Positions 10,919 to 19,666 of a DNA stretch of 64,000 bases are shown in pieces. The stretch is from Deltaproteobacteria bacterium (GTDB taxonomy: Bacteria > Myxococcota_A > UBA9160 > JAJDAL01). The stretch spans positions 44,967-108,966 of the forward strand of contig JAJDAL010000028.1 in assembly GCA_029261875.1 (NCBI GenBank). Reading direction: 5' to 3'. Position 1 is the first letter of the stretch; each line of letters starts with the position of its first letter. The notes under the pieces are model-generated. The model worked only from the letters and a program-made list of their open reading frames with translations, was not told where the DNA came from and did not search any database. The translations under genes were made by a program, and so were the position numbers.

Positions 10919-11686
10919 CTATCGGTTGAATTCCGCGACCACGGGAGCGTGATCCGAGGGCTGCTTGCCTTTGCGTTGATCGCGATCGACGTACGCGCCG
11001 GTACAAAGCGCCGCCAACGGCTCCGTCGCAAGGATGTGGTCGATGCGGAGACCGTCGTTCTTCGGAAATGCGAGCTGACGGTAATCCCACCAGGAATACA
11101 GCCCGCCTTCGGGATGGAAGCGGCGCACCACGTCCGTCAATCCCCAAGCGAGCAAGCGCTCGAATGCCTGGCGGGCGTCGTGGTGGCACAAGACACTGTC
11201 TTTCCAAGCCTCGACCTTTGCGACGTCGAGGTCGTCCGGCGCGATGTTGAGATCGCCGCACAGAACGAGCGGTTGATCGGGGCTTTGGGATTCGAGGTAC
11301 GCGTCGAGGGCGCGCAGCCAGCGCTGCTTGTACGCGTACTTGTCGCTGTCCACCGTGGAACCGTTGGGCACGTACGCGCAAAGGACGCGGACCCCTTCCA
11401 CGTCGGCGGAGACGAAGCGCGCCTGGGGATCTTCCAGGGCTGGGGCCAGCCCCAGCTGGACGTCGCAGAGGGGCTTTCGACTCAAGATCGCGACGCCGTT
11501 GTAGGTCTTCTGACCGAAGTAGGCGGTGTGGTAACCCGCTTCGCGCAGGGCGTCTTCGGGAAAGTTTTCGTCGATGGACTTGGTCTCCTGGAGGCACACC
11601 ACGTCGGGCGAGTGAATCGGAAGCCAAGCCAACAGCCGCTCGAGTCGAATTTTGATGGAGTTCACGTTCCAGGTGGCGATCTTCAC
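10919..11686 (-). CDS. xthA: Exodeoxyribonuclease III
   Basis: MKIATWNVNSIKIRLERLLAWLPIHSPDVVCLQETK...LCGDLNIAP...RIDHILAT...SDHAPVVAEF. Confidence 0.95.
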   Translation of the reverse strand: MKIATWNVNSIKIRLERLLAWLPIHSPDVVCLQETKSIDENFPEDALREAGYHTAYFGQKTYNGVAILSRKPLCDVQLGLAPALEDPQARFVSADVEGVRVLCAYVPNGSTVDSDKYAYKQRWLRALDAYLESQSPDQPLVLCGDLNIAPDDLDVAKVEAWKDSVLCHHDARQAFERLLAWGLTDVVRRFHPEGGLYSWWDYRQLAFPKNDGLRIDHILATEPLAALCTGAYVDRDQRKGKQPSDHAPVVAEFNR

Positions 11687-12573
11687 GGTTTCTCCGCTGG
11701 TTGACAGTCGCGTGCCAACATTTCCAGAATTTCTTCGCGATAGGGGACGAGGTCCGCGATCAGGGTGAAGTTACCGAACACCGCGCTTTTCGATTGTCCG
11801 GGTTCGGTCCCGACGCCGAACAGGATGCCGGCCAATTTCCAGGCACCGTCGATGTGTGCGAAGGCACCTCCGCCCGAATCTCCGATGGCAGCCTGGGCTT
11901 CGTGTTCGGTGCCGCGCCGACGGTCGAAGCGCGTCGCGAAAGAGAGGGTTTGAGTGCCGTCCTTGGTGACCCGCAGGCCGATTTGCGCCACAGCGTTGGT
12001 GCCCCAGCGCAACTGGGTCCCCTTCGCCCATGGAAACCCGAGATAGGCGTGTTGGCCGCGTTCGGCGGGCGCCCACTCGGCATCCCAGGCCTTGGGGCTC
12101 GGTCGGCGATTGCGCCCGTATCCCACCAAGATGACCCGAGCCCCAAGCGGCAGGGGCGTCGCGGAAACCGCAAGCGGGGCGAGGTCGGTGGGGGGCTCGA
12201 CGCGAAACATCGCGAGATCCGCCGGTTCGGGGAAACGGCCAGCGCCCAGGACGTGTTCGGAACCGCGGACCAGGCGATGCGTGCGACCGGCGAAATCAAC
12301 CTCGAACCGGGCATCCGGATTGTGGGGTCGCCGAATGGCGTGCCAGGCCGTGAGGACACAGGATCCCCCCAAGCCCACGGCGCTCACGCTCCCCAAGCGA
12401 CCGAGGTGCGCCCAGCCGAAATCGTCCGCAGGAGGACTCGTGTTGCCGCGCCCGTCGCCGCTGGCAATCACGACCCCGGACGCGGGGACGCCGCAGAACA
12501 GCAGCAGGCAAACGGCCAGAATCATCTCTTTCATGCGCAACAGGGGTCCCTCGGGGGTAAATCCATCTTTCAC
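11683..12573 (-). CDS. Secreted trypsin-like (S1) serine protease
   Basis: Signal peptide; SCVLTAWHA (His), DLAMFRV (Asp), GDSGGGAF (Ser). Confidence 0.88.
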   Translation of the reverse strand: MKDGFTPEGPLLRMKEMILAVCLLLFCGVPASGVVIASGDGRGNTSPPADDFGWAHLGRLGSVSAVGLGGSCVLTAWHAIRRPHNPDARFEVDFAGRTHRLVRGSEHVLGAGRFPEPADLAMFRVEPPTDLAPLAVSATPLPLGARVILVGYGRNRRPSPKAWDAEWAPAERGQHAYLGFPWAKGTQLRWGTNAVAQIGLRVTKDGTQTLSFATRFDRRRGTEHEAQAAIGDSGGGAFAHIDGAWKLAGILFGVGTEPGQSKSAVFGNFTLIADLVPYREEILEMLARDCQPAEKP

Positions 12574-12662: not shown

Positions 12663-12786
12663 TCGGCGCAGGTAGGACGATGTTTCGCCTGCTCCTCGAT
12701 AAGAGCAAACCCGTCGCAAGGCGGGGACGCAAAGCCAGTGCCCTTACTCGGTCAATCCGAACGGGTCGAACGGCTGCCGAAAGGAG
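12663..12786 (+). ncRNA. GEMM-I cyclic-dinucleotide riboswitch (c-di-GMP-I family; A at Vc2 position 20, GEMM-Ib-like)
   Basis: gataagAGCAAACCcgtcGCAAggcggGGACGCAAAGCC: GEMM-I core with GNRA tetraloop P2; second hairpin tcgg-tcaat-ccga; candidate outer stem TCGGC(12663-12667)/GCCGA(12776-12780); SD AAGGAG at 12781-12786; ATG at 12793. Confidence 0.93.
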
Positions 12787-12792
12787 TTACGA

Positions 12793-13443
12793 ATGTCATC
12801 CCGCGCCCCCCGTACCCCCCTGGCGGTTCTTCTTCTCTGCTCCCTGCTTTCGGTATCGGCCCACGTTGGCGCGCCCCTCGACCCGGCGTTGGCGGAAGCG
12901 CGCGTGCTGGAGTCCGTCGCGGCGGGTCGCGCGGCTTGGGTTGCCGACCGCACCGCGGAAGTGGCGGACTTCATTCGTACCCAGCCCCACACACTGACGA
13001 ACGCAGAGGTCGAAGCGGTCGCGGAGACCGTCGTGATCGAAGCCCAGCGACGAAACCTGCCGGTGGCCCTGGTGCTGGCGGTGATCGAGGTGGAGAGCAC
13101 CTATCGCCACGAAGTGGTGTCCCACGTGGGTGCGCGCGGCTTGATGCAGTTGCTCCCGGATACGGCGGCGTGGATCGCCAAGAAGAACAATTTGCCCTGG
13201 GATGGCGAGGACACGCTCTTCGATCCCGTCGTCAATGTTCGGCTCGGTACCGCGTACCTGCGATACCTCGCGGATCGCTTCGAAGATGTCCCGACCGCGA
13301 TCGCCGCCTACAACGCGGGCCCCGCGCGCATTCTTCGCTACCTGAAGCGCGGTCGGAATCTGCCGGAAGATTATTCGGCGCGCGTGTTGGGAACCTTTCA
13401 GGTCACTGCGGCGCTCACGGGGGATTCGGGCGTGGCTTCCTAA
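12793..13443 (+). CDS. Lytic murein transglycosylase (SLT domain)
   Basis: LALVLAVIEVESTYRHEVVSHVGARGLMQLLPDTA-type core (ESTYR, GARGLMQLLP, AIAAYNAGP); signal peptide; downstream of the riboswitch. Confidence 0.92.
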   Translation: MSSRAPRTPLAVLLLCSLLSVSAHVGAPLDPALAEARVLESVAAGRAAWVADRTAEVADFIRTQPHTLTNAEVEAVAETVVIEAQRRNLPVALVLAVIEVESTYRHEVVSHVGARGLMQLLPDTAAWIAKKNNLPWDGEDTLFDPVVNVRLGTAYLRYLADRFEDVPTAIAAYNAGPARILRYLKRGRNLPEDYSARVLGTFQVTAALTGDSGVAS

Positions 13444-13517: not shown

Positions 13518-14345
13518 GTGGCTATCCCCCTAGAACTACAACAGAAACAGGAAGCGCTGCGGCACGGATTGCGGGCCGCGGGGCGCGTGATCGTGGCCTT
13601 CTCGGGCGGCGTCGATTCGTCGTATCTGGCCTGGGAGGCCAAGCAAACCCTGGGCACCCACGCGCTGGCGGTGACCGCCGTGTCGCCCTCGTATCCCGAA
13701 TCCCACCGCGATATGGCGCTGCGGATCGTGCGGGATTTCGAACTCGAACATCGCTTCGTGGACACGCGCGAGATGGAGAGCGAAGCCTATCGCGCCAACA
13801 ATCCCGACCGCTGTTACCACTGCAAGAGCGAATTGTTTCGCGTGCTGGGCTCTTTGCGGAAAACCGAAGGTTTCGACGCCGTCGCCTACGGGATCAATTT
13901 GGACGATCGCAGTGACTACCGCCCGGGCCACCGCGCCGCGGACGAGGGCGGCGTGCTTTCTCCGCTGCTCGATGCGGGGCTCACCAAAGCGGAAATTCGC
14001 AGCCTCTCGCGCGAAGCGGGGCTTCCCACCGCGGAACTGCCCGCATCGGCTTGCTTGTCCTCGCGGCTTCCCTACGGGACGGAAGTCACGGAGGAACGGT
14101 TGCATCAAGTCGAGCAGGGCGAAGCGCGTTTGCGCGAACTCGGATTTCTGCAGGTTCGCGTGCGCCACCACGGGGATTTGGCGCGCATCGAAATTGCGCC
14201 GGAGGAGCTACCGCGCGCCCTGGACGCGCGCATGGCAAAGGCCATGTCGGAAGCCCTCAAGCCCCTGGGCTTTCGGTTCGTATCCCTCGACCTCGAGGGC
14301 TATCGCATGGGCTCGCTGAATTCGGGACTGGAGATCATTTCGTGA
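13518..14345 (+). CDS. larE: LarE-type ATP-dependent sulfur transferase
   Basis: [20 protein letters not shown] (PP-loop), [44 protein letters not shown] start. Confidence 0.92.
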
Positions 14346-16027
14346 GCAGGAAGTCGGGAAGCAATCGGCACAGTCGCATCGTGACCCAGGGTGACGAACG
14401 CGCGCCGAACCGCGCCATGTTGCGGGCCGTGGGTTTCGGAGATGCGGATTTCGACAAACCCATCGTAGGCGTCGCCAACGGCTACAGCACCATTACGCCG
14501 TGCAACGCGGGTCTGGACGACCTGGCCCACACCTCGGTCAAAGCCATTCGCGACGCGGGCGGCATGCCGCAGGTGTTCGGAACCATCACCGTCAGCGACG
14601 GGATCTCGATGGGGACCGAGGGCATGAAGTGCTCTTTGGTGAGCCGGGAAGTCATCGCCGATTCGATCGAAACCGTGTGTCGCGCCCAAAGCCACGACGG
14701 CGTGATCGCACTGGGCGGTTGCGACAAGAACATGCCCGGCGCCATGATCGCCCTGGCGCGACTCAATATTCCTTCGATCTTCGTGTACGGCGGCACCATC
14801 AAACCGGGGCATTTCGCCGGGCGCGATCTCACGGTGGTGAGCGCCTTCGAGGCCGTGGGCGAATTCGGTGCCGGTCGAATTTCCCGCGACGACTTCAGCG
14901 AGATCGAACGCCGCGCCTGCCCGGGCAAAGGCTCGTGCGGGGGCATGTACACCGCCAACACCATGAGTTCCGCGATCGAGGCCATGGGGATGAGTTTGCC
15001 GGGTTCGGCGAGCATGGCGGCAGAAGACGCGGAGAAGAATCAGAGCGCGGGGGAGAGCGGACGCGTGCTGCTGGATCTGATCGACGCCGATCTGAAGCCG
15101 CGCGACATCCTGACCCGGGAAGCCTTCGAGAACGGGATCGCCGTGGCGATCGCCCTGGGCGGATCCACCAACGCGGTCTTGCATCTGCTCGCCATCGCCC
15201 ACGCGGCCCAGGTTCCGCTCGAGATCGACGACTTCGAGCGCATTCGCAAGCGCGTCCCCGTGATTGCGGACATGAAGCCCTCCGGGCGCTACGTGGCGAC
15301 GGACCTCCACGCCGTGGGGGGGGTGCCCCTGGTCTTGAAGATGCTCTGCGCCGAAGGGTTGATTCACGGCGATTGTATGACGGTGACGGGCAAGACCGTG
15401 GCCGAAAACATCGCCGCGGTTTCCGAGACGCCGCCGACCGATCAGGACGTGGTGGTGCCGTTTGCGAAGCCCCTCTACGCCGAAGGTCATCTCGCGATTC
15501 TGCGCGGCAATCTCGCTCCCGAAGGAGCCGTCGCGAAGTTGACGGGCGTGAAATCGTCGACCATCCGCGGTCCCGCGCGGGTGTTCGATTCCGAAGAAGC
15601 CTGCATGGAAGCGATCATGAGCGATTCGATTCGCCCCGGCGATGTCCTGGTGATTCGCTACGAGGGCCCCAAAGGCGGGCCGGGCATGCGCGAGATGCTG
15701 ACGCCCACCAGCGCCATCATCGGCAAGGGGCTGGGCGATTCCGTGGGACTCATCACCGATGGGCGTTTCTCCGGCGGCACCTACGGTCTCGTCGTGGGAC
15801 ACGTGGCACCCGAGGCGCAAGTCGGTGGTCCCATCGCTTTGGTGCAGGAAGGCGATTCGATCACCATCGATGCGACGCGGCGCGTGATCGACCTCGAGAT
15901 CGATGCGGACGAGTTCGAACGCCGCCGCGCGGCCTGGACTGCGCCGGCTCCGCGCTACACCTCCGGCGTGCTGGCGAAGTACGCGAAGCTCGTGTCGAGC
16001 GCTTCCAAGGGCGCGGTCACCGACTGA
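14342..16027 (+). CDS. ilvD: Dihydroxy-acid dehydratase
   Basis: [66 protein letters not shown] start overlaps the larE stop. Confidence 0.96.
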
Positions 16028-18553: not shown

Positions 18554-19666
18554 TCAGCCCGCGTCGCGCGAGCCGAGTTCGATGGCCGAAAGCAGGGTCT
18601 CGCGCGTGACCGCGCCTACGATTCGGCCTCCCTCCAGGATCGGGATCTGGTTGGTTTGCTGGCGCCCCATTTCGACGACCAAGTCCCTGACGGGTGCGTC
18701 GGGCGACGCGGTAAGGACCTGGTCCATGGGGGTGGCGATGCTTTCGATCCGGGTGGTCGCTGCCAGCGAAGCCGACACCTTTCGGACGTCGGTCAAGGTC
18801 ACCAATCCGAGGGGCCGGTCTCCGTGTTCCACGATGGCCCAGCGTTGGCCCCGCATGACCCGATCGCGCGTGAAGTCTTCGACGGAAGCACCGGCTTCGA
18901 TGCGCGCGACGGACAGGGCCATGACGTCGCGCGCACACAGGCCGTGAAGGCTCTGGTCCACTTTCGCTTGCCGAATTGCCGCCGCGGATGCGGAATAGAG
19001 GAACCATCCGATGAAGCCGAGCCAGATACCCGCCGCGGTTTGTTGGAACGCCAAGAATTGCAGCGCGCCGATGCCCATGAAGCCGTACGCGATGTACTGC
19101 CCGGCGGTCGCGGCGGTGCGGGTCGATCGCGCGGCGTCCCCGTTGCGGGCCCAGAGTGCGGCCCGCAGCACGCGTCCTCCGTCCAACGGGAATCCCGGTA
19201 GCAGGTTGAAGACCGCCACGGCGAGATTGATGTCCGACAGCCAGCCGACCAGGGAATGAATCGAGCTCTGGGTCTCGACGGCCGCGGCCAGGGCGCCGAA
19301 TGCCAGCGCGAGCAGAGCGCTCACCAGCGGGCCCGCAATGGCGATCTGGAATTCCGCTCGCGGGGATTCCGGCTCGCGATCCATCAGCGCGACGCCGCCG
19401 AAGATGAACAAGGTGATGGAGCGGACGCCCACGCGGTGGCGCAAGGCCAGTAAACTGTGGCCGAGCTCGTGCAGCAGGATCGAGGCGAAGAACAACACCG
19501 AGGTAGAAACCGCGAGCAGGAGCCGTGTGCTGGCATTCCAAGCGCGCGCCGTCAATCCGAGATCGGTCCAAAGGAACAACGTCACCAGCGCGAAGACGAT
19601 GAACCAGGTGGGGTGTAGATAGATCGGGATGCCGAAGATTCGGCTGATGCGAATTCCGCCGCCCAT
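18554..19666 (-). CDS. M50-family (site-2-protease-like) metalloprotease with C-terminal CBS domains
   Basis: LLHELGHSLLALRH (HExGH), NLLPGFPLDGGRVLRA, two CBS-like repeats at the C-terminus. Confidence 0.92.
   Translation of the reverse strand: MGGGIRISRIFGIPIYLHPTWFIVFALVTLFLWTDLGLTARAWNASTRLLLAVSTSVLFFASILLHELGHSLLALRHRVGVRSITLFIFGGVALMDREPESPRAEFQIAIAGPLVSALLALAFGALAAAVETQSSIHSLVGWLSDINLAVAVFNLLPGFPLDGGRVLRAALWARNGDAARSTRTAATAGQYIAYGFMGIGALQFLAFQQTAAGIWLGFIGWFLYSASAAAIRQAKVDQSLHGLCARDVMALSVARIEAGASVEDFTRDRVMRGQRWAIVEHGDRPLGLVTLTDVRKVSASLAATTRIESIATPMDQVLTASPDAPVRDLVVEMGRQQTNQIPILEGGRIVGAVTRETLLSAIELGSRDAG

Follow-up and report, generated by a model that had tools for sequence, protein, structure and literature searches.

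A GEMM-I riboswitch with a conserved adenine at the ligand-specificity position in front of a lytic transglycosylase gene: a candidate cGAMP sensor

We describe a GEMM-I riboswitch which carries A at the equivalent of Vc2 position 20 (A20) and which stands directly in front of a lytic transglycosylase gene; across its bacterial class, this A20 is kept almost only at that gene. The riboswitch is real and conserved, its A20 is gene-specific, and it belongs to a known class; its target has no match in the literature that we searched. From these observations we infer below what its ligand and its effect on the cell wall would be. Throughout the text, the window is the whole stretch of DNA that was analysed (64,000 nucleotides).

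The aptamer and the gene that follows it

In a cmscan of the 64 kb window, RF01051 (c-di-GMP-I) is the sole Rfam family with a match above its gathering score. The match covers the complete model and scores 65 bits, the gathering score being 35 (E 1.9e-10); P2, its GNRA loop and P3 are all present. The elements to which we refer in what follows are these:

12691-12698 (+): 5' strand of P1, GCUCCUCG, complementary to the Shine-Dalgarno sequence and paired with 12778-12787 in a fold of 12682-12790
12694-12781 (+): GEMM-I / c-di-GMP-I aptamer (RF01051; cmscan, model positions 1-87)
12704 (+): A at Vc2 position 20 (model position 11; the same column was read in all relatives), which we take to contact ligand base alpha
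12705-12730 (+): P2 hairpin with its GCAA (GNRA) loop at 12716-12719 (cmscan consensus structure)
12731 (+): equivalent of A47 (alignment), presumably intercalated between the ligand bases as in the established Vc2 structure
12733-12775 (+): P3 stem-loop, limits approximate (cmscan consensus structure)
12777 (+): equivalent of C92 (alignment), which we assume to be the pairing partner of ligand base beta
12778-12787 (+): 3' strand of P1, including the Shine-Dalgarno sequence AGGAG at 12782-12786 (sequence and fold)
12793-13443 (+): gene of a lytic transglycosylase with an SLT domain, 216 aa, signal-like N-terminal segment (PF01464, 96.6 bits)

At model position 11 the consensus is G and the window has A. 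As there is no insertion before this position and 12704 directly precedes the first P2 pair (G12705-C12730), 12704 is the equivalent of Vc2 G20, a position which has been equated across GEMM-I RNAs, G11 of Cd1 corresponding to G20 of Vc2 (PMC9262584). An earlier note on this DNA had claimed a GEMM-I aptamer with A at the ligand-specificity position; the Infernal search bears out the aptamer, and the structure-based alignment bears out the equivalence of 12704 and position 20. The same note had given the element as 12663-12795, which has to be narrowed: the core aptamer occupies 12694-12781, P1 extends it to 12691 and 12787, and 12663-12690 is upstream leader.

The note had also placed the aptamer before a peptidoglycan lytic enzyme, and this stands. 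The aptamer, ending at 12781, lies in the 5' leader of the SLT-domain reading frame, whose ATG at 12793 begins 11 nt downstream. The protein contains the motifs ES...GLMQ...AYNAGP, of which E101-S102 (with the catalytic Glu), GLMQ and AYN-GP are conserved in an alignment of 13 homologues; together with the PF01464 match, this identifies a family 1 (SLT) lytic transglycosylase. A profile built on the window protein with its relatives has PDB matches to Slt, Slt70, MltC and EmtA. The gene upstream (11683-12573, reverse strand) is divergent and trypsin-like, and the one after the transglycosylase (13560-14345, forward strand) encodes LarE, an ATP-dependent sacrificial sulfur transferase (TIGR00268, 307.7 bits).

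Position 20 across the class

We searched 99 relatives with RF01051, fetched all the loci and aligned them with the covariance model. One duplicate being dropped, this left 66 aptamers, 17 with A20 and 49 without. Across the class (91 genomes), 16 of the 17 A20 aptamers lie before an SLT transglycosylase gene: fifteen have the SLT motif just downstream, and one (L054) is cut by a contig end but has an N-terminus matching the same protein. By contrast, none of the 48 assessable aptamers without A20 precedes an SLT motif (the remaining one, L023, where the contig ends, was not judged). The genome from which the window comes (5.7 Mb) has five GEMM-I aptamers, and that of the window alone has A20, the other four being G20. 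Hence, we concluded that A20 is a conserved, gene-specific trait. In a phylum sample of 387 genomes, the A20 core, searched as a DNA pattern, was found in 17 of the 91 class genomes and in none of the 296 others. The lone A20 aptamer of the class which is not before a transglycosylase (L061:2004-2119, genome G090) lies before a gene for a pilin-like protein with an N-methylation motif, a type of target otherwise seen with G20 aptamers.

The 16 transglycosylase leaders are orthologous and do not count as 16 independent events. The argument from conservation rests instead on the survival of A20 and C92 while proteins and leaders diverged: the homologous transglycosylases share only 33-44% identity with that of the window and the leaders share 59-94% among themselves, yet the A of 12704 is invariant in all 16, and so is C92. 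Position 92 is C in all 17 A20 leaders and C, U or G among the G20 leaders of the class (L001, L058, L061 and L062 were read as C92 from their sequences, and the column counts agree). One could imagine that the aptamer is a relic, its A20 reflecting neutral drift in a decaying switch which has no current ligand; the match is full-length at 65 bits, and 51 of the 124 leader columns, A20 and C92 included, are invariant over 16 diverged leaders, so that we consider this very improbable. The same genomes hold other transglycosylase copies, which score 200-240 bits against 255-305 for the riboswitch-linked ones, the latter scores being inflated since the profile was built from these very copies; none of the lower-scoring copies coincides with a GEMM-I match of the relatives search.

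Several observations concern the other GEMM-I aptamers. Among the targets of the G20 aptamers in the source genome are a subtilase and a pair of similar surface-type proteins, of which one matches laminin-G weakly. On contig C54 of this genome, two same-strand aptamers 4.7 kb apart (14738-14826 and 19436-19524; L004, L005, L076) each precede a related surface-type protein. Many G20 aptamers of the class have U at the position of Vc2 C92 (G in L003 and L004), and their J1/2 is usually one nucleotide shorter; the loci in question are L003, L004 and L005 in the source genome (C6, C54) and L029, L031, L032, L044, L045, L049, L050 and L059 in relatives. G20/U92 aptamers might, in principle, recognise G at alpha together with A at beta, which would be a flipped cGAMP, or else c-di-GMP through a G-U wobble. 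EAL-HDOD and PilZ proteins are among the targets of U92 aptamers. In relatives, L006-L020 form a second GEMM-I group, with a GATTC/GAATC P1 which contains no Shine-Dalgarno sequence; its targets are large secreted proteins of unassigned type. RF03167 (c-di-GMP-I-GGC) gives a better score for L015, L020 and L022, and L022 has a P1 of the Shine-Dalgarno type. Outside the class, one can notice a Geobacteraceae bin (G408, L196) with 41 GEMM-I matches in 4.4 Mb, and Geomobilimonas luticola (G105) with 21.

Synthases, pocket and ligand

A search of the source genome for a Hypr-type, GacA-like GGDEF synthase, which the earlier note had suggested, found one among seven GGDEF matches. This protein, L036 (REC + GGDEF), reads NDRYGHLVGS and YGGDEF when aligned to 6d9m. 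It has Ser at position 348 of GmGacA, GGDEF rather than GGEEF, and keeps Asn339; Hypr enzymes are defined by Ser348 together with GGDEF (PMC6456294). Its best PDB match is GacA itself (6d9m, 161.8 bits, the runner-up having 135.5). At the position of GacA Tyr304 it has Ala, and in Hypr enzymes where position 304 is Tyr, Ser, Ala or Gln (non-Arg), cGAMP is the main product (PMC6456294). L036 would be the cognate cGAMP synthase that a GEMM-Ib riboswitch calls for. A second Ser-type GGDEF protein, L040, has Val at the position of Asn339; L035, L037, L038 and L039 have Asp at 344/348 and are canonical GGDEF enzymes. The Hypr pattern (GHLVGS ... GGDEF), searched in DNA and validated on L036 and L040, occurs in 84 of the 91 class genomes, with or without an A20 switch. 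We considered its co-occurrence with the A20 switch as proof of the ligand and rejected it: as Hypr is nearly universal in the class, this co-occurrence is uninformative on the ligand.

The pocket of the aptamer combines A20 with a lower P2 of the Vc2 type (G12705-C12730 for G21-C46 and C12706-G12729 for C22-G45) instead of the C21-G46/U22-G45 form of Geobacteraceae. In five genomes of Desulfuromonadales type (named Geobacteraceae, Geobacter, Geomobilimonas, Desulfuromonas), 26 A20 aptamers were sampled, 19 of which have C21-G46/U22-G45 and 7 G21-C46/C22-G45 like the window. The former kind agrees with the crystallised cGAMP riboswitch, which has A14 and, at the base of P2, C15-G40 (PMC6274999). 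The latter kind was found, among the matches listed and with a few chance matches included, in Firmicutes, Chloroflexi, Gemmatimonadetes, Elusimicrobia, Desulfuromonadales and others. Among the matches listed, 65 named genomes have a window-type A20 pocket; 24 of them contain the Hypr pattern and 41 lack it, several of these genomes being incomplete and a DNA pattern being liable to miss relatives. It is present in the sampled genomes labelled Desulfuromonadales, Desulfuromonas, Geobacteraceae and Deltaproteobacteria and absent from the sampled Firmicutes; the genomes lacking it include Clostridium magnum and Thermoanaerobacterium. This means that A20 with the pocket of the window is compatible with c-di-GMP sensing. 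The idea that A20 suffices to make a GEMM-Ib, cGAMP-sensing aptamer is consequently not supported, 19 of the 26 carrying the other lower P2 and 41 of the 65 having no Hypr match. The earlier note's candidate cGAMP/GEMM-Ib sensor stands in part: a GEMM-I aptamer with A20 and a Hypr GGDEF enzyme are there, the lower P2 is not of the Geobacteraceae form. For this reason, and as the assignment is one made from sequence, we do not place the window aptamer in GEMM-Ib; it may work like one.

The pocket and the synthase leave 3',3'-cGAMP, as we see it, an even chance of being the main ligand. In a Geobacter GEMM-Ib RNA, the A20G change turns cGAMP selectivity into c-di-GMP selectivity (PMC6456294), and Vc2 G20A has been crystallised with cGAMP (4YB1, as cited in PMC6274999). 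A c-di-GMP sensor of altered affinity, in which A20 would lower the affinity so that the switch needs high c-di-GMP to respond, low concentrations being enough for the G20 leaders of the genome, is a serious possibility to which we give somewhat less than even weight. Position 20 is described as a selectivity factor and not a hard filter (PMC9262584), Vc2 mutants at 20 and 92 are reported to show weaker c-di-GMP binding (PMC9049102), the four canonical GGDEF enzymes are also in the genome, and the same pocket occurs in the 41 named genomes just mentioned; nearly all the relatives, however, have the Hypr enzyme, and a strict retention of A20 at one gene is at least as easily explained by a distinct ligand. 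What remains of our expectation goes to dual sensing.

Direction of the switch, its meaning and known systems

When 12682-12790 is folded, GCUCCUCG faces the AGGAG, which is part of the 3' strand of P1. In 15 of the 17 A20 leaders the P1 5' strand could pair with the Shine-Dalgarno region over 5 or more consecutive base pairs; L062 has CCCC/GGGG instead of CUCC/GGAG in this pairing. A scan for promoters and terminators found none, with no terminator-like site between the aptamer and the transglycosylase gene. Hence, the Shine-Dalgarno sequence being within P1, control would most simply be translational. Known GEMM-I structures show a junction which the ligand closes on P1. As the ligand would then stabilise the very helix whose 3' strand holds the Shine-Dalgarno sequence, the simplest model is an OFF switch in which this sequence is hidden upon binding. 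When more upstream sequence is included, the predicted minimum-energy fold becomes a hairpin leaving the Shine-Dalgarno sequence free. The OFF direction of the 12691-12787 switch is therefore tentative.

An ON switch, whatever its ligand, would have the Shine-Dalgarno sequence hidden by a ligand-free P1 or by another fold, and a rearrangement upon binding would let the transglycosylase be translated. We think this unlikely, given that the sequence is inside P1, the helix stabilised by ligand in known structures, and that its pairing is kept in 15 of 17 leaders; in favour of an ON switch, the full leader has several competing folds in energy models, and GEMM-I aptamers serve as ON or OFF switches (PMC9262584). 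Two further lines were abandoned. A helix upstream (GCAGG/CCUGC) which would compete for the P1 5' strand is present in the window and in several relatives but is not significant, the median p against shuffled upstream sequence being 0.19. In a formal covariation analysis of P1 over 67 aptamers, a set which mixes two P1 types, paired cells exceed the shuffles, but slid controls equal or exceed P1 itself on some covariation measures.

Our proposal, which as a whole has in our opinion one chance in two of being correct, is an OFF translational riboswitch responding to a cyclic dinucleotide and spanning 12691-12787. The ligand at the three-way junction would lock P1 and with it the AGGAG of the transglycosylase gene, which is part of the 3' strand of that helix, so that less transglycosylase would be translated. 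A20 would be a maintained change of specificity which, together with C92, favours adenine at alpha and guanine at beta, that is, 3',3'-cGAMP, and the source of cGAMP would be the GacA-like Hypr GGDEF enzyme of the genome. Residual c-di-GMP binding is probable, the rest of the pocket being Vc2-like.

Riboswitches for cGAMP are documented mainly from Geobacter. Whether they exist in other bacteria is a question which has been raised (PMC8835794). A literature search found no description of such a c-di-GMP-riboswitch leader of a lytic transglycosylase, the 2015 GEMM-Ib papers lying outside its scope, so that an earlier listing is possible. We suggest, tentatively and with less confidence than the proposal above, that this is a second cGAMP riboswitch lineage, which lies outside Geobacter and was assembled independently: a pocket of the Vc2 type, altered at position 20 alone, would be kept class-wide before one transglycosylase paralogue, Hypr-made cGAMP would control peptidoglycan cleavage, and the G20 leaders would serve c-di-GMP. 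If true, this links a cyclic dinucleotide to cell-wall remodelling. One genome with four G20 aptamers and one A20 aptamer, in a class which is almost universally Hypr-positive, allows one to test cleanly whether position 20 by itself suffices to split c-di-GMP and cGAMP signalling within a cell.

Finally we must compare the window with known systems. Geobacter GEMM-Ib riboswitches (Gm0970, pgcA/GSU1761) share with it the RF01051 fold, A20, A47, C92 and a GacA-like Hypr GGDEF enzyme in the organism, and one operon of the Geobacter cGAMP regulon encodes lipoprotein transpeptidases (PMC6456294). They differ in their lower P2 (C21-G46/U22-G45 against G21-C46/C22-G45), whereas the window aptamer has the Shine-Dalgarno sequence inside P1, a lytic transglycosylase as target, and a ligand class read from its sequence. 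The Vc2 pocket is that of the window except for A20, so that the window matches Vc2 G20A; the A is natural and conserved here and engineered there, and the expression platforms differ. The A20 aptamers with an AGC/CGC pocket of Gemmatimonadetes, Firmicutes, Chloroflexi, Desulfuromonadales and Elusimicrobia have the same bases at 20, 21, 22, 45, 46 and 47; among the matches listed, none of those outside the class has an SLT motif within 1.5 kb downstream, several contigs ending early and the motif being narrower than the one used for the class. The ydaO-type c-di-AMP riboswitches, although unrelated to the window's GEMM-I in fold and ligand, lie near cell-wall genes and are likewise cyclic-dinucleotide RNA switches tied to cell-wall metabolism (PMC7288161).
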